This document shows positions 16,402 to 26,488 of a DNA stretch of 26,488 nt, piece by piece. The notes below the pieces were generated by a model. The model was not told the origin of the DNA and ran no database searches. It saw only the letters and a list, made by a program, of their open reading frames with translations. The first letter of the stretch is position 1. Each line of letters begins with the position of its first letter. Origin of the DNA: a virus; IMG/VR virus record IMGVR_UViG_3300003690_000056, positions 1 to 26,488 of that record; one strand, 5' to 3'. A program made the translations under genes and the position numbers.

Positions 16402-18513
16402 TTACTTTCTTTTTTTATTGGTTTTGATAAACATATGAACCGAACGTTTCAATTCTTCATCAGACTTATATAAATCTGATTTATCTATACATTCACGAAC
16501 ATACGACGACAATTTCCAGTAATGTCGATATGAAGATCCTTCTCGTTTCACAATGTCCAATACATGTAAATCTTGAAGAAGACGAGAGACTGTTGCGAGA
16601 GGATAACGTGTTATACGAGCGAGTTCTTGAGTGGTAATCGCGTTGCTTGGTAATGGGCAATTAATTACTATAGTTCTTATCATATCCTCTACACGTTGAG
16701 GAATTGTATCTAATACAATCTTTTTTACAATCCTGTATTGATCTTTGCCGCATTTCTTTTGTTTATGAATCAAGGCTAATGATTTTACAAATTTTGCTAA
16801 TTGAATTCCCAATCTTGATCCTATTTCTGCACTTGGTCGGCTGGTCATAATATCATGGCGATATGTATCGCGAGAAACCGTTCCACGCAATCTTGCTCCA
16901 AACATACCAAGATATATCAATTTTTCTTTAAAATTCTTATCGATAGAAGGATATAATTCTAGATTTAATTTTTTAGCCCATTCTAATCGTTCATCTAAAA
17001 ACGCTCGAACAACGTCTGCTAATTGCCATTTCATCTCTGTTTCGCGATGAATATTATCAATAGCCCGTCGAATAATTTCTCGTTCACTTGTATGTTTAAG
17101 ATTATGTCCTGATGAGAATTTTAAAAACCGTTCGCCTAGGCTTTGATGTTGACTGGATAAATCATAAATGCGCGGTGTCACCGCTGCTAAAATAGTAAAT
17201 CGACTTTTATAATTACGCTCTACGCCTGTACCAAATACTTTTCCACATTTCCCATCATAGGCATCTCTTAATATTCCGAATATTTCATCTTTATCTGCAT
17301 CACGCATCGACAATATAGATGTGAAATCTTTTACCACCATAACCCGACCGTCTAGTCTGGGAATCAACGATGGATCAGGCATATTTTTAAAATTTGCTCC
17401 CGATATCAAAGCATGAGGTGTTAAACTACTGGTCATATAGGTTTGATCACATAAAAACAATGATCCGATTATTTCAGTTTTAGCACCTCCAGGGGGAGCA
17501 ACTAAAAACATCCAAATGGGAGGTCCATCAATAATTTGAGATAAATGGACTGCCATAATAGTTTCAATTGCATCCGTATCATTTAGAAATAACCATTTTT
17601 TAAATACTTTTTTTAATTCGTCCAGTGATGGAGGTTTTTCCCATTCAGAGGCTCGTTCTTCTTCTTGTTCCTCAGTGCTATCATCCCCATCAATAGGAAG
17701 AATTCTTTTTCTCGGTTTCGTTTCAAATAATTTGGTAAGGGCGATAAAACACTCGCTGCTAGTATTGCGATCCACAGCCCCATAGATAATCCAGTCTCTA
17801 ACATCAAAACCACGATCCACTGAATTCGGCCAATGTGTGTAGGTGATTTTTTTTGTGACTTCACCCAACCGTTTTTGAACCAAGATATCGCCATTTTCTC
17901 CTGCCTCATCAGAATCATACAGAACATGTATAGTTCTTCCATTAAACCAAGGAACCCATTCTTGTTTAAATGTTCCAACTCCTGGAACACAGAGAACTAC
18001 TCCTGGTCTTCGTAATTTTGTAATCAGCCATTGCATGGCAATGGCATCCCATTCTCCTTCACATAGATATACAGGGTCTTTAGGTTTTTTCGATAACCAT
18101 TCTGCTCCCATTAAACCAGTCGAACATCCAGATGTACTCATCATCTGTTTGCCCAATTGATAATGGCGAATATCTTGAACTATTCCTTTAACATTTCGTA
18201 CTGGCCATGTATATCGATGTCCGTCCCATCCAGTGTGCCAAACTTTAAATGCTTCTACAGGTAGATTTCTATGTGATGACAATCGACGCCTAATTGATGC
18301 AGTTAATTGATCTACATTTTGTTTCGATATTTCATAAAGAAATTTAGGAATATCTCCACCAATGCCTGCAGTCTTAGAATCCCACAACATCGTTTGTTCA
18401 TTTACATAGAATTTATCTTCCTTTCCCGTAAATGGGCATAGTCCATAGTGTTCATCTCCCCGCGTGGCGTTGAAGATAACACCATGGGTTTCAAATACCC
18501 CGAATTTCTTCAT
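16402..18513 (-). CDS. Primase-helicase fusion (Toprim plus AAA+ ATPase)
   Basis: This is a 703-residue replication protein. The N-terminus looks like a decayed CHC2 zinc finger: LCPFTGKEDKFYVN then GIGGDIPKFL, keeping C26 but not the other three ligands. The Toprim domain (about 145-240) has LCEGEWDAIAM with the catalytic Glu and VLYDSDEAGENG with the DxD pair. The helicase half has a Walker A-like APPGGAKT (about 338-345, Ala replacing the usual last Gly before Lys), a Walker B-like RVMVVKDFTSI and a probable arginine finger in LGERFLKF. The C-terminal region (about 625-675: TTQELARITRYPLATVSRLL) is a winged helix. A charged linker (STEEQEEERASEWE) joins primase and helicase. It would make primers and unwind DNA for the adjacent polymerase. 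An AGGA site precedes ATG 18513. Confidence 0.83.
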   Translation of the reverse strand: MKKFGVFETHGVIFNATRGDEHYGLCPFTGKEDKFYVNEQTMLWDSKTAGIGGDIPKFLYEISKQNVDQLTASIRRRLSSHRNLPVEAFKVWHTGWDGHRYTWPVRNVKGIVQDIRHYQLGKQMMSTSGCSTGLMGAEWLSKKPKDPVYLCEGEWDAIAMQWLITKLRRPGVVLCVPGVGTFKQEWVPWFNGRTIHVLYDSDEAGENGDILVQKRLGEVTKKITYTHWPNSVDRGFDVRDWIIYGAVDRNTSSECFIALTKLFETKPRKRILPIDGDDSTEEQEEERASEWEKPPSLDELKKVFKKWLFLNDTDAIETIMAVHLSQIIDGPPIWMFLVAPPGGAKTEIIGSLFLCDQTYMTSSLTPHALISGANFKNMPDPSLIPRLDGRVMVVKDFTSILSMRDADKDEIFGILRDAYDGKCGKVFGTGVERNYKSRFTILAAVTPRIYDLSSQHQSLGERFLKFSSGHNLKHTSEREIIRRAIDNIHRETEMKWQLADVVRAFLDERLEWAKKLNLELYPSIDKNFKEKLIYLGMFGARLRGTVSRDTYRHDIMTSRPSAEIGSRLGIQLAKFVKSLALIHKQKKCGKDQYRIVKKIVLDTIPQRVEDMIRTIVINCPLPSNAITTQELARITRYPLATVSRLLQDLHVLDIVKREGSSYRHYWKLSSYVRECIDKSDLYKSDEELKRSVHMFIKTNKKRK

Positions 18514-18524
18514 ATCGCCATTCC

Positions 18525-18692
18525 TTATTTGTTGTTGTTTATTTTATTAGTATTAATTTTTTCAATAGCACTTAAATGGCTATATACACACAGTAATTCT
18601 CTTTTCGTTAAAAATTTCTTTTGACTATCAATTCTAGCTATACGTATCTCTTTGCATATTTCATTACATAGTGTTAGACGATCCATTCTCAT
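18525..18692 (-). CDS. Small 55-residue protein between polymerase and primase-helicase
   Basis: This short gene starts at ATG 18692 (or 18686) with a GGAG site seven bases upstream, lying in the last codons of the polymerase gene, which ends 3 bases earlier. The product begins MRMDRLTLCNEICKEIRIAR and continues IDSQKKFLTKRELLCVYSHL before a polar Asn/Lys-rich end (INTNKINNNK). It is basic and predicted helical, with no membrane segment. It fills an otherwise empty gap between two replication genes. Function unknown; a small accessory factor for either neighbour is possible. Confidence 0.6.
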   Translation of the reverse strand: MRMDRLTLCNEICKEIRIARIDSQKKFLTKRELLCVYSHLSAIEKINTNKINNNK

Positions 18693-18695
18693 AAT

Positions 18696-20705
18696 TTACT
18701 CCAGTAGATACGGAGCAACTTTTGTTTCTTCACTCCAAGATGTATTTGATAAAGCCATATCAATCGGGAATGGAATAGGTAGTCCCAGTATAGAACTATC
18801 CCGTTGCATACATTCAATAATCTGTTTCATCAATTCTATTGAATGGTATTCATAAGGTACCTCCAACACGATTTCATCGTGAACAGACAGAATCATATGA
18901 ATCCCTGGCCAATCTCGTCGGCATATTTCCTCATCAACTGCAATCATTGCGTTTTTCATAATTTCAGCCGATGAACCTTGAATCAAATAATTAACTGACT
19001 TATATCCATGTCCTTTATCGAAATGATACAGCCGACCGAATGGATTTCTAATGTATCCATCTCTATCGGCTTTTCGTGTCATTTCTTCTGAAAATGTTTT
19101 AACTCCAGGTAATTCATTTTCATAATCATCCAAAAATTCTTGTGCTAATGATTCTGGTGACCGTTTTTTATCCTCCTCTGTTAAGAATCGTTTGTCTCGA
19201 AATAATAATTTTGCTATTCGTTTTACTCCTCCTCCATACAGTTTACAGAACATTAATAGTTTCGCGCATTTTCGATAGTATTCAAATTGTTCTTTATAAT
19301 CAGGACGTTTCCCAAATATACTCTTCGATATCTCGCCGTGATAGTCTTTTCCAGATAATAAAGCTTTCATCATAGCTTGTTCTTTAGCTAATGATGCAAA
19401 TACCCAAACTTCCATTTGTTTAAAATCAGGGAAATATAAAATATGACCAGGTCGAGGTCCAAATGCTTCACGTGGACGCATACGAACTCGTGATTTACGC
19501 AATCCCGTTTCGGCATCAGCCACGTTCATGACGCTGGGATCTGAACTGGATAACCGCCCCGTCTTTGCAGCTAATTGACGCCACGTTGGACGTACTACCC
19601 AAACGTCGTGGGATTCCTCAAACCAATAGCGTTCATAGGAATCGATTAACGACACCATGCCTTTTGCTGTTCGAAGTTCCAACACACATTCAGCTAATTT
19701 ATCAGTTTTTGCTAATTCCGTTAAATGTGTACCTGGGAGAGAATAATTTCCTTTCTCTGTGTACATAGGCGTGAGTTTTCGTACATCGTAAAATATCTTG
19801 CACAATTGAATAGCGCTACCTAGATTGATTCCTTCACCACCGTTTTCTTTCGCTAACTGCGTTTGTTCATCGATATAATCTAGATAAAATTCCCGTAATT
19901 TATTAAACCGACGCTTATAAACTCTTATCCCTTTTGCTGACATCCTAGCGACAACATGGAAAAGTTTCATTTCACGGTCGAACACATTCTTCAATCCTTC
20001 ATCCTTTTGTAATTTAGGCCATAATAAGTGGTATAACAACATCGTTCGTTCTACATCTTGTATTGCGTATCGTTGACATAATGCCGGATCGCCTAACCAG
20101 TAATCTGCTTCTGCAGGCGTGCGCCCTGCGATGATTCGATTGCCGAATGCCCAACGATTAGCCTTCGCTTTTCGTCGTCCCGATGCGACAGATTTCTGTA
20201 AATCTTTTTTATCATCATCGCTGAACTCAAACCATTTCTTACACAATGGTTTCAGGCCGTACGTTATTTCCGACCCAGCAGATACAATGTGAGCTAGAAT
20301 CATCGTATCAATGATCTGACCCTTAATTTTGTACCCAGCCATTCGTGCCATCAACACGTCGAAAATAATGTTGTGGCCTATTTTTACAATTGAATCATCA
20401 GCCCAAAAATCTCGAATTAATTTACAGTCGGAATCGTTTTCATAAACAATTTCTCTGTTAATGGGATTGACCTTGTGACGGATATACGCAGTATTCCCAT
20501 CAAGGTCACAAAACGACCATGCGAATGCTCTAGCTGGATGAACGTCTCGTCGTTCTAAGTCTGGTCGGCGTTCTGTACCGAAATTCAATTCTACGTTTCT
20601 GATTGCCCAGGGGAAAAGTCCAGTTGTTTCTGAATCGACTGCAATGATATGTCCTTTAAGCCCAAGTTTTCTTGTTGCATAACCAGCCATTTTAGAAATT
20701 CGCAT
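18696..20705 (-). CDS. polA: DNA polymerase I-type (family A) with 3'-5' exonuclease
   Basis: This is the replicative polymerase, 669 residues. All three proofreading motifs are present: Exo I AVDSETTGL (D24, E26), Exo II GHNIIFD (N112, D116) and Exo III YAIQD (Y213, D217). Polymerase motifs: TGRLSSSDPSVMNV (about 382-395); motif A FPDFKQMEVW (D427, E432); motif B R478-K482-F486-Y490-G491 in RKCAKLLMFCKLYG; motif C SVHDEIVLEV (H609, D610, E611). There is no 5' nuclease domain, as usual for phage enzymes. The residue equivalent to E. coli Phe762 is Phe (F486). Start ATG 20705 has a GGAGGAG site 11 bases upstream, and the first 115 bases overlap the preceding gene in another frame. Confidence 0.95.
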   Translation of the reverse strand: MRISKMAGYATRKLGLKGHIIAVDSETTGLFPWAIRNVELNFGTERRPDLERRDVHPARAFAWSFCDLDGNTAYIRHKVNPINREIVYENDSDCKLIRDFWADDSIVKIGHNIIFDVLMARMAGYKIKGQIIDTMILAHIVSAGSEITYGLKPLCKKWFEFSDDDKKDLQKSVASGRRKAKANRWAFGNRIIAGRTPAEADYWLGDPALCQRYAIQDVERTMLLYHLLWPKLQKDEGLKNVFDREMKLFHVVARMSAKGIRVYKRRFNKLREFYLDYIDEQTQLAKENGGEGINLGSAIQLCKIFYDVRKLTPMYTEKGNYSLPGTHLTELAKTDKLAECVLELRTAKGMVSLIDSYERYWFEESHDVWVVRPTWRQLAAKTGRLSSSDPSVMNVADAETGLRKSRVRMRPREAFGPRPGHILYFPDFKQMEVWVFASLAKEQAMMKALLSGKDYHGEISKSIFGKRPDYKEQFEYYRKCAKLLMFCKLYGGGVKRIAKLLFRDKRFLTEEDKKRSPESLAQEFLDDYENELPGVKTFSEEMTRKADRDGYIRNPFGRLYHFDKGHGYKSVNYLIQGSSAEIMKNAMIAVDEEICRRDWPGIHMILSVHDEIVLEVPYEYHSIELMKQIIECMQRDSSILGLPIPFPIDMALSNTSWSEETKVAPYLLE

Positions 20706-21112
20706 CGATCACATTTCTCCTCCTCTGGAAATAGAAGACATGATTCTTCTGCATTTGGTCGTTCACAATCTTCATGTTCCAAAATGTAGTCTGTCACATC
20801 GATATAAAAATTTTCTGGAAATTTATTCCACATATAGAGTAATGACATCATATTAGCGACATCCATTAGGCGTGAATCAATGCTTTCTGATTCCGTTTTA
20901 CCTAATACCGTATGATTTCTTATTGCTGAAATATGTTTTCTGAGAAGAATCCACAATACTATGGAAGGCGAAACGTTGGTTTCCCAAGACTGTCGAAGCA
21001 ATTCAACAAAAACTATATTATTGGATGCATAATCTTTTGCTTTTGGTTTCATCAGTTCAATACATTTTTTAAAAAATTCCTCATTATGAGTGATTTGATC
21101 TTCAACTATCAT
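20591..21112 (-). CDS. DUF1599-like / nucleotide-modification-associated protein
   Basis: This 173-residue protein has an AAAGGA site before ATG 21112, which overlaps the previous gene by 11 bases. Residues 15-95 are helical: LMKPKAKDYAS, then WILLRKHISAIRNHTVLGKT, then ESIDSRLMDVANMMSLLYMW. The 'K..DYA' start with 'R..H....GK..sESi.drLmDvAN' is the pattern of DUF1599-type proteins, an all-helical group recalled as associated with phage nucleotide or DNA modification. A C-terminal cysteine-rich part (C116, C125, CDRC at 134-137) may bind zinc. The last 38 codons overlap the polymerase gene, so the C-terminal tail (about residues 136-173) may be a by-product of that overlap. The enzymatic role is unproven. 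Confidence 0.58.
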   Translation of the reverse strand: MIVEDQITHNEEFFKKCIELMKPKAKDYASNNIVFVELLRQSWETNVSPSIVLWILLRKHISAIRNHTVLGKTESESIDSRLMDVANMMSLLYMWNKFPENFYIDVTDYILEHEDCERPNAEESCLLFPEEEKCDRCEFLKWLVMQQENLGLKDISLQSIQKQLDFSPGQSET

Positions 21113-21656
21113 CTTCTATTCCTTTCATAAGTTTTCTGGAAATAATTTTTACTGTAGAAGAAGGTTTTTTCATCTCTATTTGTTTTTCTTCTTTTATCCA
21201 GATAAACCATGCACAGGTAACAGAATCCACATTGCCATCGCCTGTAAAAGAATGACGAGGCATTACTAAAATACTGGGAGGATGGTTGGTTAAAAAATCA
21301 GCCCGATTTAGACATGGTTCTAAAAACGTTAAACGAAGTAAAAAAGCTACTCCATATATTGCATAATGAAAAGCATGTTTAACAATTGATGAAGCTTTAC
21401 TAAAAGGGGGATTCGATATAACCCAATCAAAGGGTTCACCTATCCATAAAAAATCTTTTGAAGCATCCATACATCGGTCGGCTTTTCGATTGTGGTCAAT
21501 ATCATTTGTAGTAACGTGATAGCCGTTTTGCATCAATATATTAGCGATTGCATTATCGCCGCTGCAACACTCCAATACCCTGCCGCCAATAAGAGTTCCT
21601 ATATCACATAACAATGCTTTTGTATAGGTGGGAGGAGTTTCATAAAATTCATTCAT
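21102..21656 (-). CDS. DNA adenine methyltransferase-like protein
   Basis: This is a 184-residue protein from ATG 21656, which lies in the last codons of the upstream gene (8-base overlap). An upstream in-frame ATG at 21698 would lengthen it but falls deeper in that gene. Motif I for S-adenosylmethionine binding is RVLECCSGDNAIANIL, with the acidic NDIDHNRKADRC following. The catalytic motif IV is NPPF within DWVISNPPFSKASSI. NPPF/Y indicates amino (N6-adenine or N4-cytosine) methylation. The early FYETPPTYTKALL pattern resembles phage methyltransferases whose N-terminus reads 'e.YyTP'. No separate target-recognition domain is apparent. It would protect phage DNA or tune host restriction; no cognate nuclease is nearby. 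Confidence 0.72.
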   Translation of the reverse strand: MNEFYETPPTYTKALLCDIGTLIGGRVLECCSGDNAIANILMQNGYHVTTNDIDHNRKADRCMDASKDFLWIGEPFDWVISNPPFSKASSIVKHAFHYAIYGVAFLLRLTFLEPCLNRADFLTNHPPSILVMPRHSFTGDGNVDSVTCAWFIWIKEEKQIEMKKPSSTVKIISRKLMKGIEDDS

Positions 21657-21942
21657 TTTCTTCGTTTTCACCGCGTTCTCCAGATGTCGCATTATCATTA
21701 ATAATTTTGTAAAATGCTTTTATTTGTTCTTCACGTTTCTCTGTACCCAAAGCTGAGGTTCCTTTCCGAATTGCATGTCCCATGAATCGAGCCATACCTA
21801 CCAGAAACATTCCAATAGGAATACCGGAAGTACGTAATTCCATATCTAAAATATCTATGGTTTGTTCGATGTATTCTGAAGCTTTTTTAAATTCCTCATC
21901 ACTCATTTCTAGAGAATTATCAATATTTTTGGTATTTGGCAT
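21649..21942 (-). CDS. Hypothetical protein in replication operon
   Basis: This is a 97-residue acidic protein with a strong site (GGAAGG) before ATG 21942, which overlaps the nuclease gene by 23 bases. It is predicted helical: DEEFKKASEYIEQTIDILDM, then a more hydrophobic GIPIGMFLVGMARFMGHAIR segment, then KREEQIKAFYKIINDN and a Gly/Glu/Asn-rich end. The hydrophobic stretch has Arg residues inside and is not a clear membrane helix. Family not recognised; no function proposed. Confidence 0.68.
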   Translation of the reverse strand: MPNTKNIDNSLEMSDEEFKKASEYIEQTIDILDMELRTSGIPIGMFLVGMARFMGHAIRKGTSALGTEKREEQIKAFYKIINDNATSGERGENEENE

Positions 21943-22357
21943 AACCTTCCTCTACCATTTGTTTATTTAAATTAACGTCATCAGCCCACACGGTAATCAA
22001 CCATCTACCAAATTTTCCTTGTTCACGATGGCTTTGAATAAATAATTTCGCACTTACTTGAGCGTCATGCATTTTTTCGATTAACCAATCGCGTGTTTTA
22101 AAACCTTCTTCTTTTTCCGAGCCTCTCACTTCTGGCGCATTAATTCCATATAATCGAGTTTTAATTTCTACTCTCACGTTAAACCCCAAATCAAGAACAA
22201 GATCTAATATCGTGTCCCCATCATAGACACGATATGAAATCGGTCGATATCTCCATTCATCTTTATCAGACCAATTTTCCGAATATCCGGGAGGCCCTAA
22301 TTCAGCAAATCCGCGAACGGGGAAATCATGTTCTATTTCATCGTCATAAACCGGCAT
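21920..22357 (-). CDS. Staphylococcal-nuclease-like endonuclease
   Basis: This is a 145-residue protein from ATG 22357, chosen because GGGGA lies 7 bases upstream; ATG 22402 would add 15 residues. SNase-fold residues are in place: VYDGDTI (D46, D48), TRLYGINAPE with R68 and E76 eight residues apart, as Arg35 and Glu43 in the Staphylococcus aureus enzyme, and FGRWL with R118 as Arg87. The position of the metal ligand Asp40 is Asn73, a substitution also seen in homologues. There is no secretion signal, so it probably acts inside the cell on nucleic acid. It sits in the replication operon, next to the methyltransferase and unknown small gene. Confidence 0.82.
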   Translation of the reverse strand: MPVYDDEIEHDFPVRGFAELGPPGYSENWSDKDEWRYRPISYRVYDGDTILDLVLDLGFNVRVEIKTRLYGINAPEVRGSEKEEGFKTRDWLIEKMHDAQVSAKLFIQSHREQGKFGRWLITVWADDVNLNKQMVEEGYAKYQKY

Positions 22358-22420
22358 ATGTACGTCCCCATAAAAGATTGATTTTAACCCCCTAAGGGGC
22401 ATTCTAAGCGAAAATGAAAC

Positions 22421-22445
22421 GGGGGGTATATCCCACATACCCCCC
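22421..22445 (-). terminator. Strong hairpin downstream of the SSB-like gene
   Basis: A 9-bp perfect stem (22421-22429 with 22437-22445, GGGGGGTAT and ATACCCCCC) has a 7-base loop. Read on the - strand, it is followed by GTTTCATTTT, an imperfect T-rich stretch. It lies 16 bases after the SSB-like stop and about 60 bases before the nuclease start. It could be a weak terminator or an RNA processing or stability element. Confidence 0.6.
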
Positions 22446-22475
22446 AATCCATTAAAGTTCCTAAGAACGTTTCTT
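22432..22475 (-). repeat. Degenerate intergenic element, copy 2
   Basis: On the - strand it reads CTAAG, TTAGGAAC, TTTAATGG, a G-run and TATGTGGG, like the + strand of 15679-15733. A CCTAAGAAC 9-mer (22460-22468) is exactly shared on the + strand with 15690-15698. It overlaps the end of the SSB-like gene and the hairpin. Confidence 0.45.
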
Positions 22476-23243
22476 AGATGATCGACGTGCTTTTTTCGGT
22501 GGTTCTTGTATTGGCTCAGATTCCAATTTATCGACACCGATTCTGACCGTACGTCCTGAATCTAATTTCACTCTACATTTACCTTCGGATTCCATAATCT
22601 CGATTATTTCACCAGGTTCTTCACCTTTTTTGGTAGTAGCAATAACACGCATTCCAATTTCTACAGGTTCCTCAACAGAATCATCGTCTTCTAATTCTTC
22701 TTCCGGTTCATCATCAACTTCATCACCAGACCCATCGTCGGATTCTTCTAAATCCTCATCATCTGATACCATTGATTCATTTTCAGAATCTTCATCAACA
22801 GTATCAGTATCCGATGATACAGATCGCATCAACTTATCTACATAAACATTCTGAAATTCACCTTTGGTTTTTAACCGAATTCTTGCCAATGGTTGTTTTT
22901 CAATAAGTTCATCCAGAATATCAGAAATCTCTGTAATGTCTTCTGGTAATTCGTATCCAAATCGAGACAATTTACGTCCCAAGAAAACTAAATTATCTTC
23001 AGTCTCTAATCCATCGAAATCTAACTTTGTATCTTTCTCAAATTCACCGTCGCTGATTGTCCATGTCCATTGAATTTGGAGACGACCAGATGATCGAGAT
23101 TCACAAATTTGAGCATTTGTCAGATGAGCCAAATAACGACCATCTGGTACTTCTGTAAATCCTGTACTTTCTTTAGCTTTTGACCTTGCACCTTCCCAAT
23201 TGTTTTGAGCCTTTTTTAACTTATTTTTTAATGCGCTATCCAT
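22461..23243 (-). CDS. DUF669-like single-stranded DNA-binding protein candidate, acidic and KOW-like parts
   Basis: This is a 260-residue protein from ATG 23243 (GGAG at proper spacing; 8-base overlap with the previous gene). Residues 20-140 (GFTEVPDGRYLAHLTNAQIC, then GRLQIQWTWTISDGEFEKDT, then LVFLGRKLSRFGYELPEDI) follow the layout of DUF669 proteins, which lie beside Sak4-type recombinases and act as SSBs. A strongly acidic segment follows (about 143-190, DDEDLEESDDGSGDEVDDEP). Then comes a KOW/SH3-like barrel (MRVIATTKKGEEPGEIIEIM and CRVKLDSGRTVRI) and a basic tail (PPKKARRSSKKRS). The acidic and KOW parts look added. It may recruit polymerase, helicase or Sak4 partners. The SSB role is inferred from family and neighbours. 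Confidence 0.66.
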   Translation of the reverse strand: MDSALKNKLKKAQNNWEGARSKAKESTGFTEVPDGRYLAHLTNAQICESRSSGRLQIQWTWTISDGEFEKDTKLDFDGLETEDNLVFLGRKLSRFGYELPEDITEISDILDELIEKQPLARIRLKTKGEFQNVYVDKLMRSVSSDTDTVDEDSENESMVSDDEDLEESDDGSGDEVDDEPEEELEDDDSVEEPVEIGMRVIATTKKGEEPGEIIEIMESEGKCRVKLDSGRTVRIGVDKLESEPIQEPPKKARRSSKKRS

Positions 23244-24096
23244 TAGTGTCTCCTGTAGAGAATAATTTAGTTTCTGATCGCATTGCTCCACCAGCCAAAC
23301 GATCAGGTGTTTTACCGTCAATTAAATCCAGAATCAATTTCCACGGCAGACGCAGTGTTCCGGTGGAACCTGCCCATTTTGGAAAGTCTCGTGCAATTTT
23401 CTCAATTGCTCTTCCACATTTAACCATTCGTTCGTCTATGGTTCCTTGCCCTCCTTTCTGGTAACGGGATTTAGAGTATGGGGCATCAGGACATACTCTA
23501 AAATCTTTTACGCCTTGTTTCATTAACCATAAGAAAAAATGCCGATCATCTAGACCATATGTATCGTGAGGAAAAATATAGTTTCTGCATAAACGTTGTC
23601 CTACACAATAAAAAATCATTGCTGGTTGAGGATAAGATCGATATCCATAGTGGGTTTCCATTTTTTTTATACTATTTCTATCGAAATGTTTAGATGTCGA
23701 ATGAGCACCAGCCATTACACATGGACGTTTATTTTCATTTTTAAAAGCATCAAAAGATTTTATTAACGTATGCAATGATTTTTCAGTAAACACTGCATTA
23801 TCGTCAGTAAAAATATATCGCTGATGATCGCTATTCATATCAGCATGGCACTTTAATTGTTGACGAGCAAAAGATACTGACCCCATTGGATTATGATAAA
23901 ACACATAATGACAATCAGAATTTTCATCCATAAATTCTTGATAATCATCTACTTCTCTATGTTCAATTCCTACATATGTTCGCCAATCATTAAGGAAAGG
24001 CATTTTTTTAAATCCTTTTTGGATTCGATCTGCTCTTCCTTTAGTTGGAATCATAATGGCGTAATTCCATCCATCTTTTGATGATCGGAATCTCAT
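23236..24096 (-). CDS. GT-A glycosyltransferase-like protein
   Basis: This is a 286-residue protein starting at ATG 24096, overlapping the previous gene as ATGA. It opens with AIMIPTKGRADRIQKGF, a GT-A start; then SFARQQLKCH and YIFTDDNAVFTEKS, with D98, D99 and N100 at the place of the metal-binding DxD. Later YGLDDRHFFLWLMKQG gives an acidic pair before a helix, as in the catalytic base region. The order 'IP.KgR', '.RQ', 'DD', '..D..f...l...G' recalls TET-associated phage glycosyltransferases that modify hydroxymethylated bases in DNA, but sugar and acceptor are unknown. Other sugar-transfer roles are possible. It lies inside a replication and nucleotide-metabolism operon rather than in a structural one. 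Confidence 0.65.
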   Translation of the reverse strand: MRFRSSKDGWNYAIMIPTKGRADRIQKGFKKMPFLNDWRTYVGIEHREVDDYQEFMDENSDCHYVFYHNPMGSVSFARQQLKCHADMNSDHQRYIFTDDNAVFTEKSLHTLIKSFDAFKNENKRPCVMAGAHSTSKHFDRNSIKKMETHYGYRSYPQPAMIFYCVGQRLCRNYIFPHDTYGLDDRHFFLWLMKQGVKDFRVCPDAPYSKSRYQKGGQGTIDERMVKCGRAIEKIARDFPKWAGSTGTLRLPWKLILDLIDGKTPDRLAGGAMRSETKLFSTGDTNG

Positions 24097-24938
24097 GCTC
24101 TTCTCTTCAACGTTTTCTTTACAGAAGACTTTGATTCACCAGAATTAGGATTAAATTTATTGTTGAAAGCTTCAACAAAATTTCCGTATCCTTCTTCTGC
24201 AGAATTGCCCATCGGGATTATACGAATCGATTCGCCTTTCCATTTGAATCGACCATCCAGTCTGTGTCCAGCAGATATATCTTCATTTCCACCAATAACT
24301 AAAACTCTTTTATTTCCGTCGTAAGTAAAACATGCCCAAATATCAACTACCCCTTCGATGATTTCTGCAGCCTGTCGAGGCATTGTGCTGACTACGCGAT
24401 GGCTGCTAGAACCATGACGGGTTTTGATTTCTCGTTCCATTGCATGGGAAATAAAAATAACTCCTTTACCGGCTGAAAGAAGTCGATGGATTTGTTGTTC
24501 AAATTCTTTTCTAATAGCTCTCCACCCCTTACCCCATTCTTCGTCAGCAGGGTCATCAATTGCTAATTTAGCACAGGCGTATCGTTCTGCAGATTTAAAC
24601 GCTAAATCGACAGTATCAATCACGATAGTATCGAATCGTTTATCGATCCTTATTTTAGTAACAGCTTTTTTAAATGTCCCCCAATCAGTAAATTCTGACT
24701 GATAGATTTCTAATGACCTTCCCCCTGGTTCAAACATCATGTGAAAGGCATTAGGAAATTGAGCTGACAACATGGTTTTACCGATTTTCTTTTCCCCAAA
24801 CAATAGAACAATAAAATCACCAATCTTTGTTTTAGGAATAGATTTTTCTATTGGCAATTCAAATTCTTCTGATGATCGACGTATTGAACCGTCGCCTGAT
24901 TTTTCTTGAGATGGACGTTGTTTTCTTACCACTGCCAT
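24093..24938 (-). CDS. Sak4-like RecA-fold single-strand annealing ATPase
   Basis: This is a 281-residue protein starting at ATG 24938, which follows a G-rich site (AAGGGGGG); ATG 24971 would add 11 residues. Walker A GEKKIGKT (G48-T55), Walker B FDTIVIDTVD (D108 acidic) and a sensor-like IFISHAMERE (H165) give the P-loop AAA_24/Sak4 layout typical of phage RecA-like recombinases. An early SIPKTKIGDF segment precedes the P-loop. The C-terminal Lys/Arg-rich tail is likely DNA-binding. Its SSB-like partner is two genes downstream, the standard phage pairing. It would promote strand annealing for recombination-dependent replication or repair. Confidence 0.82.
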   Translation of the reverse strand: MAVVRKQRPSQEKSGDGSIRRSSEEFELPIEKSIPKTKIGDFIVLLFGEKKIGKTMLSAQFPNAFHMMFEPGGRSLEIYQSEFTDWGTFKKAVTKIRIDKRFDTIVIDTVDLAFKSAERYACAKLAIDDPADEEWGKGWRAIRKEFEQQIHRLLSAGKGVIFISHAMEREIKTRHGSSSHRVVSTMPRQAAEIIEGVVDIWACFTYDGNKRVLVIGGNEDISAGHRLDGRFKWKGESIRIIPMGNSAEEGYGNFVEAFNNKFNPNSGESKSSVKKTLKRRA

Positions 24939-24959
24939 GTAACCCCCCTTATTCAGTAG

Positions 24960-24972
24960 TGTGATATTCACA
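24960..24972. promoter_or_regulatory. Operator-like palindrome TGTGATATTCACA
   Basis: Perfect 5-bp arms (TGTGA, TCACA) around a 3-base centre lie in the 95-base gap between the ThyX-like gene and the Sak4-like gene, about 20 bases before the latter's start. The gap holds no gene. A repressor or activator site, or a promoter-linked element, is possible; no clear -35/-10 pair was identified. Confidence 0.35.
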
Positions 24973-25033
24973 ATTAATGTAGTCTGATTAGATACATAAC
25001 CATTAAAAGTTTATATTTTTCTTTAATAATCCA

Positions 25034-26068
25034 TTAGATTTTTGGCCTTAATTCTTTAGGATAAAATCCATTAGTTTTTATCCATACAATTGAATCCCCA
25101 TTCATACTGTCTGGATGGAGGATAAAAAATGGATTCTGCAAACGTTTATGCGTTCTTTCTATTGAATCAATTGATTTATCAACAGGCCATTTCAAATCAG
25201 GAGGCCATGATTCTAATTTTGAAAATACAGATCGTTTTGCTCGGTCGCTGTGAGAACCCAAATATTTAGACAGTAACGGGGGGCATTTCCTTTTTATTTC
25301 TCGTAACATCAATTGTGCGACACAATTTATCTCCCAATCCATAACGTGTTCCAATCGATTACCCAGTACTCCTCTCAATGAAGGATACGTATAGCTGATA
25401 TGAATGTATGTCTGTGTTCCAATAGGAAGTAATCGACGTGCATCCTGCCAAGGAATTCCCGAATCCACTAGAGCTGCATATAATTCTTTACCTTGTTTAA
25501 GGTATTTTTCTATCGATTCCATCAAGGTCAATGATTCAGATTTTGCAACATAATTTCCAATAGGTTCTGAATCATCAACACAACAATCATAGAGATTTTC
25601 TTCGGGAGAAAGATCCGTTGAATCAGGGTACTGAACACAGGCTCGTCTGATGGTTTCGGGCAATGTCCAGTTTCGATGCCTCCAATCATTGTCCCGCCCC
25701 CCGTGCTGCATGACAGAAGCACCGATACGTGTTCGTACTAATTGATGTGTACAGGCTCTCGAAACACCGTTAATTGTAAAAGCAAATGTGATTAATTCCA
25801 GGCATTGTTGCAACGTTTTGCCTTCAAAACACGATTCCACATATGCCAATTGTTTAGACGATAGGTCTGAATCACACTTTATTCGAGAAGGATTGTCACC
25901 CCAATTAGATTGAAGTTGATTGTATAAAGTTGAATTTAAATTTTCTTGTGGACCCCATGTGTCTAAAATAACGTCTATAGATTCAGGTCCATATGTAATT
26001 CTGCTGCAAGGATCTTGTCCTTTATGTATTCCATGAGGCCGATGTCCTGCATCAGCGTAATCTGACAT
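25034..26068 (-). CDS. Divergent ThyX-family (flavin-dependent thymidylate synthase) homologue
   Basis: This is a 344-residue protein with a GGAG site before ATG 26068. The ThyX layout is clear: FTINGVSRACTHQLVRTRIG then ASVMQHGGRDNDWRHRNWTL around residues 98-136, and ELYAALVDSGIPWQDARRLL (195-214) followed by PIGTQTYIHISYTYPSLRGV and LGNRLEHVMDWEINCVAQLM. The signature RHRxxSxNExSxR is altered: R112-T113-R114, an extra residue, then S118-V-M-Q-H-G-G-R125. The Asn-Glu and second Ser of the motif are lost. Canonical ThyX methylates dUMP to dTMP with FAD and methylenetetrahydrofolate; this version may use another nucleotide or add another group. It is longer than usual ThyX (about 220-250 residues), with an extended N-terminus and C-terminus. 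Confidence 0.75.
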   Translation of the reverse strand: MSDYADAGHRPHGIHKGQDPCSRITYGPESIDVILDTWGPQENLNSTLYNQLQSNWGDNPSRIKCDSDLSSKQLAYVESCFEGKTLQQCLELITFAFTINGVSRACTHQLVRTRIGASVMQHGGRDNDWRHRNWTLPETIRRACVQYPDSTDLSPEENLYDCCVDDSEPIGNYVAKSESLTLMESIEKYLKQGKELYAALVDSGIPWQDARRLLPIGTQTYIHISYTYPSLRGVLGNRLEHVMDWEINCVAQLMLREIKRKCPPLLSKYLGSHSDRAKRSVFSKLESWPPDLKWPVDKSIDSIERTHKRLQNPFFILHPDSMNGDSIVWIKTNGFYPKELRPKI

Positions 26069-26069
26069 T

Positions 26070-26488
26070 TTAGTCTCCTATCGGAATTTGTTGTAGTTCA
26101 TGAACCATTCGTACCCTGCTCATCGGTTCTATGTTCAATAGATTACTTAATCCTCCCTTTTTTCTACACAACCAATATGCGGGAATATTAGCTGCATCAA
26201 ATTGATTAGCTAAAGATAAATCATCATCAACGGCAAATAAAGGATTAGGAATATTTTCAACTACATGATCGGTTTTATTGTACGACCACCAGATAATGTC
26301 GTATGGCAATTGCTCTCTTTTTAACCATGCGACAGTATCATCATAAAGATTGGGATAACGATCTATTGGTCGGCTTGTTAACAGAACAATAGTAATATTG
26401 TTTTGTTGTATTTTAGTCAAAAATTCTTTGGCATCAATATACGCTGGCATAAATTCTTTGTATCCACTGATACGGAATTTATGTTTTA
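26070..26488 (-). CDS. HAD-like phosphatase/nucleotidase, N-terminus cut by window edge
   Basis: At least 138 residues are visible. The frame continues upstream of ATG 26450 to the window end (…ISGYKEF precedes it), so that ATG is internal. Two HAD-fold motifs are seen: NITIVLLTSRPIDRYP (motif II, T/S at the end of a strand) and FAVDDDLSLANQFDAANI (motif IV acidic cluster). The nucleophile motif I (DxD) would lie off-window. Related phage proteins are often called nucleotidase or HAD hydrolase and adjust nucleotide pools. The stop lies just before the ThyX-like gene, so the two are probably co-translated. The last part (RVRMVHELQQIP) is helical. Confidence 0.7.
   Translation of the reverse strand, partial: KHKFRISGYKEFMPAYIDAKEFLTKIQQNNITIVLLTSRPIDRYPNLYDDTVAWLKREQLPYDIIWWSYNKTDHVVENIPNPLFAVDDDLSLANQFDAANIPAYWLCRKKGGLSNLLNIEPMSRVRMVHELQQIPIGD

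Follow-up and report, generated by a model that had tools for sequence, protein, structure and literature searches.

A variant ThyX, its partner enzymes and interchangeable, putative tailoring modules in a viral replication operon: a possible flavin-dependent route to modified uracil in DNA

The stretch of DNA analyzed here, hereafter the window, is the complete 26,488-nucleotide (26.5-kb) sequence of the virus record IMGVR_UViG_3300003690_000056, which carries virion-type genes on its plus strand and a replication operon on its minus strand. Our subject is a cassette in that operon centered on a variant of the thymidylate synthase ThyX, and the possibility that it serves the synthesis of a modified uracil for the viral DNA. 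As the first-pass annotation had held, these genes belong to a single operon, which runs without interruption from 16402 to 26488 and codes, in its own direction, for the end of a HAD enzyme, ThyX, a Sak4-like recombinase, a glycosyltransferase (GT), a DUF669-type single-stranded DNA-binding protein (SSB), an SNase-family nuclease, a small protein, a methyltransferase, a further small protein termed c70, a family A DNA polymerase (PolA) and a primase-helicase. The end of the contig falls inside the cassette: the HAD gene is truncated, and a flavoprotein related to UDP-galactopyranose mutase (UGM), coded upstream of it in relatives, lies beyond the window. In these relatives the UGM-like flavoprotein and a PDDEXK nuclease are found upstream of the complete HAD gene, followed by RuvC-like and SNF2 genes. 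The reading frames of the window show no sign of artefact, and the gene order is kept in many other contigs.

The ThyX gene (25034..26068, minus strand) codes for a protein of 344 residues, whose membership in the Thy1 family is established by the whole-protein match to PF02511 (E 3.4e-24; 86.1 bits against a curated cut-off of 24.8) and by profile-profile alignment with canonical ThyX (probability 99.4). Its lack of the canonical signature, recognized in the first-pass annotation, is confirmed: against RHRxxSxNxxSxR the protein reads RTRIGASVMQHGGR, with the Arg positions kept and the His, the Asn and the second Ser lost, such that RTR stands where the canonical enzymes have RHR and is followed by GASVMQHGGRDNDWRHR. 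The altered region as a whole spans residues 112-134 (RTRIGASVMQHGGRDNDWRHRNW; 25667..25735, minus strand). Using residue roles from the literature (PMC8316439; PMC5003785) and a numbering mapped onto the window in this analysis, the profile alignment equates R112-T113-R114, M120, Q121, G123, R125 and D126 with R78-H79-R80, N85, E86, S88, R90 and Y91 of the Thermotoga maritima enzyme, and R211 and R238 with its R147 and R174. By this placement, the two catalytic residues of the substrate loop, Ser88 and Tyr91, are Gly and Asp in the window protein, His79 and Asn85 are changed to Thr and Met, and the equivalents of Arg78, Arg90, Arg147 and Arg174 are retained. Mutation of Ser88 and Tyr91 slows the T. 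maritima enzyme, and both residues have been proposed to assist methylene transfer (PMC8316439).

These replacements are fixed throughout the family. Among the 47 ThyX members that cover it, the segment MQHGGRDNDWR shows no variation, at overall identities down to about 45-50%, and every one of them has Gly and Asp in place of the Ser and Tyr expected of a dTMP synthase. We rejected the notion that this motif is a product of the search patterns, because a scan with C-terminal patterns alone recovers the same contigs; its invariance is thus not an ascertainment effect. Fixation of a new 11-residue motif suggests a new function rather than drift. The window protein resembles T. maritima ThyX (TM0449) in its Thy1 core, as aligned by profiles, and in the four arginine equivalents; in contrast to TM0449, it has a substrate loop longer by one residue, about 100 extra residues, and an extension, DNDWRHRxWTMPET, that is invariant or nearly so in the family. 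The family alignment yielded a structural prediction of low quality (pLDDT 48), which was not used.

Scans of 2.9 million viral contigs recovered 49 loci with the variant ThyX; a scan of bacterial genome contigs found no relatives of it. It occurs in 13/13 long related records with one Thy1 copy each, none of the 13 codes for ThyA, and the UGM-like flavoprotein is present in all 13, with the dUTPase-HAD protein described below in the same loci. An independent scan with a profile of the UGM-like protein returns essentially the same contigs as the ThyX scan. The content common to six diverse and nearly completely fetched records comprises replication and recombination enzymes, c70 and the cassette. 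A stop-codon reassignment considered for one locus (L050) was rejected, as the stops are ordinary gene ends.

The first-pass annotation had read the gene at the contig edge (26070..26488, minus strand) as a HAD hydrolase. The HAD domain is real, but it is not a whole enzyme: what the window retains is the C-terminal portion of a dUTPase_2-HAD fusion, interrupted where the contig stops. This piece is 70-81% identical to close relatives (L001-L004), and complete fusions are about 320-370 residues long. The all-alpha dUTPase_2 domain, which lies outside the window itself, was detected in 10 of 13 fusion members (best E 3.5e-7; for L001, 28.2 bits against a cut-off of 22.9 for PF08761). Both halves keep their catalytic residues, namely the ExxE...ExxD metal ligands of the dUTPase (E41, E44, E69 and D72, all invariant) and the DxD/Thr/Lys/Asp set of the HAD domain. 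Matches of the fusion to RNase H were considered chance.

The UGM-like flavoprotein of the relatives has 276 residues, and UGMs are the sole solved family that its profile matches in the PDB at E<1e-3 (best E 9.5e-7). It shares their GxGxxG and C-terminal GRF..W motifs, with significant similarity limited to profile positions 107-227 and the C-terminal piece sub-significant. Unlike UGMs, it is short against matched chains of about 500 residues, adjoins ThyX, and has no sugar-biosynthesis context that we could see. As bacterial UGMs are about 100 residues longer, their substrate cannot be assumed for it. A role as mere supplier of UDP-galactofuranose to the GT is disfavored, since the protein also occurs in genomes devoid of the GT. 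A UGM gene is also known from Agrobacterium phage Atu_ph04, which has restriction-resistant DNA and a dCMP hydroxymethylase (PMC6630229).

The GT (23236..24096, minus strand; phrog_842, E 0.0015) had been likened to phage DNA glucosyl-type enzymes. Its model displays a GT-A fold (mean pLDDT 79; Z 15-17 to GT-A enzymes), and the best Pfam and phrog families of its relatives agree with that comparison. The top Pfam family is TAGT (PF20691), which contains a T-even DNA-base glucosyltransferase and which 7 of 18 GT members match below the curated cut-off (best E 7.5e-5), as opposed to just 2 of 18 for the general GT2 families. Likewise, phrog_842 (beta-glucosyl-HMC-alpha-glucosyltransferase) is the only phrog among the six members that match any (best E 1.8e-6), and several TAGT-labelled proteins are among the best 30 predicted viral structures matching the fold. 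The window GT itself has no match to TAGT, a search of the PDB with the GT profile found none, and tblastn with two GT members found none in the phage collection. In phage T6 a TAGT lies beside the dCMP hydroxymethylase and near the dCTPase (PMC13390438). Given that TAGT and phrog_842 are the sole recurrent named families, together with the TAGT-labelled fold matches and the T6 arrangement, a relationship to DNA-base GTs is reasonable, though not proven.

Across the family the GT belongs to one of two modules. Among 30 loci covered fully from ThyX to PolA, 15 have the GT with c70, three have c70 alone, 12 have a short-chain dehydrogenase/reductase (SDR) with a protein termed c81, and none has both GT and SDR (Fisher 1e-5 for the exclusion, ignoring descent); c70 accompanies the GT in 15/15 cases and the SDR in 0/12. 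The ThyX tree requires seven changes for the GT and five for the SDR, and hence the two modules have been exchanged. The SDR and c81, to which no family could be assigned, replace the GT and c70 in the same place between SSB and PolA (L018, L033, L038, L046, L048, L052, L055, L056, L059 and L061). The position of the GT varies: the gene may follow Sak4, SSB or, immediately, ThyX, or lie upstream of RuvC. In some relatives the slot of the GT module holds radical SAM enzymes or second GTs: a radical SAM/SPASM enzyme directly adjoins the GT at L043:12172-13888, L060:12069-13451 and in L040-L042, and two tandem GT paralogues lie directly 3' of ThyX at L053:1945-3553 and L062:854-3031. The c70 gene of the window (20591..21112, minus strand) had been labelled DUF1599-like. 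This label finds no support: 0/12 family members match DUF1599 (Nmad1) at E<=1, PF07659 has no match in 14 records, and c70 has no meaningful match in Pfam or the PDB.

The remaining genes of the operon are chiefly those of replication and recombination. The Sak4-like recombinase between ThyX and the GT (24093..24971; phrog_124, E 9.8e-29; AAA_24, E 2.4e-32), the SNase-family nuclease (21920..22537; PF00565, E 2.4e-7; phrog_452, E 1.8e-27) and PolA (18696..20705; PF00476, E 3.6e-56), the presumed incorporating enzyme, are all on the minus strand, as are the SSB (22461..23321), whose matches are weak (DUF669, E 0.0031; phrog_378, E 0.00086) and whose true start is probably internal, and the primase-helicase (16402..18513; phrog_47, E 8.4e-8), which ends the replication module and is kept in 6/6 fetched long records. 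The minus-strand gene at 21102..21698 was correctly taken for a DNA amino-methyltransferase (NPPF motif; phage DNA methyltransferase family phrog_799, E 5e-34); it is an accessory, present in few relatives (the window, L003 and L016). Other methyltransferases are inserted elsewhere: a Dam-type adenine methyltransferase between ThyX and Sak4 (L002:3406-3894; PF05869, E 2.7e-28), and a protein with a methyltransferase domain between ThyX and the GT (L057:11972-12922).

Parts of the cassette also occur in cultured phages of actinobacteria. In tblastn the UGM-like protein weakly matched gp52 of Microbacterium phage Krampus, whose gene overlaps the start of a ThyX gene; the homology was confirmed by profile comparison (probability 98.1) and hmmsearch (E 1e-15 in one target set and 3e-13 in another). 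A search with gp52 recovered 120 actinobacteriophage records from six host genera. Such a short UGM-like flavoprotein is what many phages of Gordonia, Microbacterium, Mycobacterium and Streptomyces carry under the annotation 'oxidoreductase' (L140:11911-12717 and the 120 phage records). All five inspected genomes with this protein have ThyX and three have a HAD nucleotidase: Mycobacterium phage Troll4, Streptomyces phage Rooney and Arthrobacter phage Wollypog combine, near the DNA polymerase, the UGM-like protein and ThyX with a HAD protein that shows homology to the fusion of the window (E 3e-13 to 1e-17), to which Troll4 adds a homologous SDR. Madi, like Krampus, has the UGM-like protein and ThyX, and no HAD protein was detected in these two. 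In contrast to the window, the actinophage modules have DnaE rather than PolA, a HAD protein not fused to dUTPase, and a nearly canonical ThyX loop; no GT of the window family was found in the fetched actinophage regions. As the primase-helicases of Krampus and Wollypog are related to those of the window family, part of this association may reflect shared descent of the replication module rather than independent assembly.

Other phages offer partial parallels. In Bacillus phage SP-15, gp130 resembles the window ThyX in being a Thy1 protein of divergent sequence for which synthesis of a modified pyrimidine is suspected. It has been proposed as a hydroxymethyl-dUMP synthase (PMC5977210) and adjoins an SDR, gp129, a neighbor also present in the SDR+c81 branch studied here. 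It differs in being about 15% identical, in its loop, RQHFSTIKNGLYNK, and in the presence of a second Thy1 in that phage; no counterpart of the remaining cassette is annotated beside gp129-gp130. Both SP-15 (L023:526-2411) and Escherichia coli phage WFH (L029:1363-3486) have an SDR next to or close to Thy1, under the annotation acyl carrier protein reductase or FabG-like, a proximity also seen in Troll4 and in the SDR branch. The T-even set (T6 gp42, gp56 and ggt) likewise combines a nucleotide-pool enzyme, an enzyme of thymidylate-synthase type and a TAGT near replication genes; however, T6 uses a ThyA-type enzyme on dCMP, whereas the window has a ThyX-type enzyme, probably acting on dUMP, with a UGM-like flavoprotein. 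There is precedent for pathways based on hydroxymethyl-dUMP in PhiW-14 and SP-15 (PMC5977210), and PolB indicates that a ThyX is able to change its substrate (PMC5003785).

From the directly observed gene content, conservation, linkage and module exchange, we infer a series of enzymatic steps. First, the all-alpha dUTPase half of the fusion would release dUMP, and the HAD half would remove competing nucleoside monophosphates such as dTMP, as judged from their families. Second, the variant ThyX would move a one-carbon unit from folate via FAD to C5 of dUMP; lacking the Ser88/Tyr91 acid pair, the enzyme might end the reaction early at, or redirect it toward, a hydroxymethylated or different product. 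A uracil rather than a cytosine substrate is favored by the retained equivalent of Arg174. Third, the UGM-like flavoprotein might perform a further redox or rearrangement step, or supply reduced flavin. Fourth, the phage polymerase would build the nucleotide into DNA, where, finally, the TAGT-like GT would place a sugar on the base. That the operon makes a 5-substituted uracil deoxynucleotide, which is incorporated into phage DNA and then glycosylated in this branch, is our leading reading and appears to us about as likely as not. We advance more tentatively, as something short of probable, the wider proposal of a flavin route by which DNA would acquire a hypermodified and glycosylated uracil, in which a ThyX without the dTMP-forming acid catalysts, a UGM-like protein and a HAD pool-cleaner would form a core coupled to interchangeable tailoring modules (GT+c70, GT+radical SAM or SDR+c81), and in which this core would already be present, unrecognized, in cultured actinobacteriophages. 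The base-modification idea of the first-pass annotation is accordingly better supported than before, owing to the clade-wide change in ThyX, the HAD domain fused to dUTPase, the flavoprotein present in every long record and the TAGT match of the GT family; it has lost the DUF1599 assignment, and a case resting on RTR alone would be too strong.

Several observations weigh against this proposal. The domain of hydroxymethyl-dU DNA kinase (HMUDK, PF18723) was not found in 14 records, several of them possibly incomplete, nor were dCMP deaminase or thymidylate kinase in the same possibly incomplete set; as most records are fragments, these absences are weak evidence, and host kinases could serve. 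An independent-pairs test of the module swap, with two to three supported contrasts, was not significant (p 0.5). Other points can be read as signs of plain thymidylate supply, a simpler account and the main rival, to which we accord a substantial, if minority, likelihood: the variant ThyX would be a dTMP synthase with a drifted loop, fed dUMP by the dUTPase in what is an ordinary pairing, the UGM-like protein would be a redox partner, the HAD domain a nucleotidase for salvage or degradation of host nucleotides, and the GT a separate matter. The single Thy1 per genome without ThyA, the four retained arginines and the lack of the GT in 15 of 30 fully covered loci suit this account. Moreover, the ThyX proteins of E. 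coli phage WFH, Pbunavirus Ab27 and Burkholderia phage WTB pair RTR with an Ala where Tyr91 would be, so that RTR alone is no mark of modification; we know of no DNA modification in these phages. Similarly, the actinophage ThyX loops are nearly canonical, mostly ESxRFAV, with Ser88 and Arg90 kept and Phe at position 91 in 4/5, which implies that the same set of partners does not require an altered ThyX site. Nevertheless, plain supply explains ThyX and the dUTPase, and not the rest: two residues important in characterized ThyX enzymes (PMC8316439) are replaced in every covering member, a fixed 11-residue motif is less fitting for drift, dTMP synthesis needs no HAD phosphatase fused to dUTPase, and the cassette is repeatedly accompanied by radical SAM genes and an enzyme resembling base GTs.

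A further alternative, which we consider improbable, is that the GT is a chance neighbor of the ThyX cassette within a supply operon and acts on a host surface polysaccharide, a virion protein or another acceptor. The closest solved folds to its model are indeed GalNAc-transferases, chondroitin polymerase, TarP and GlfT2 (Z 15-17); such polysaccharide and protein GT neighbors are, though, expected of a modelled GT-A fold and carry little information on the acceptor. The best TAGT score is 23.2 bits against a curated cut-off of 27.5, which 0/18 members reach, and a single-sequence profile comparison with T6 ggt was weak (probability 22%). Half of the fully covered loci also lack the GT, which varies in position and lies between SNF2 and RuvC in L050. 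Yet in all cases it is among replication and recombination genes, the families matched best in Pfam and phrog are those of DNA-base GTs, and in the fully covered loci c70 is always, and the SDR module never, alongside it. Exclusive alignment with polysaccharide enzymes, the outcome that the first-pass annotation had named as incompatible with its idea, was not obtained, with the TAGT link itself below the cut-off. Least credible, and in our view very improbable, is a different first step, in which the ThyX-like protein would be a flavoenzyme other than a one-carbon transferase and would, together with its UGM-like partner, use a nucleotide sugar or an already incorporated DNA base as substrate: the loss of the acid catalysts, the use of uridine-diphosphate sugars by UGMs and the linkage of the UGM-like protein to ThyX in both phage groups are in its favor, but the protein keeps the arginines that bind dUMP as well as the general ThyX core, and the shortened UGM-like protein cannot be assumed to share the UGM substrate.

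To our knowledge, the established phage routes to 5-substituted pyrimidine nucleotides begin with ThyA-type enzymes. A route of the ThyX type has been proposed for SP-15, and we found no demonstration of one in the open-access literature. The related core set of UGM-like protein, HAD protein and ThyX occurs in phages that grow on Mycobacterium smegmatis mc2 155, Microbacterium foliorum and other laboratory hosts, and the question is therefore a testable one. If the proposed flavin route is true, it would explain what the gene called 'oxidoreductase' in the annotation of many such phages does.

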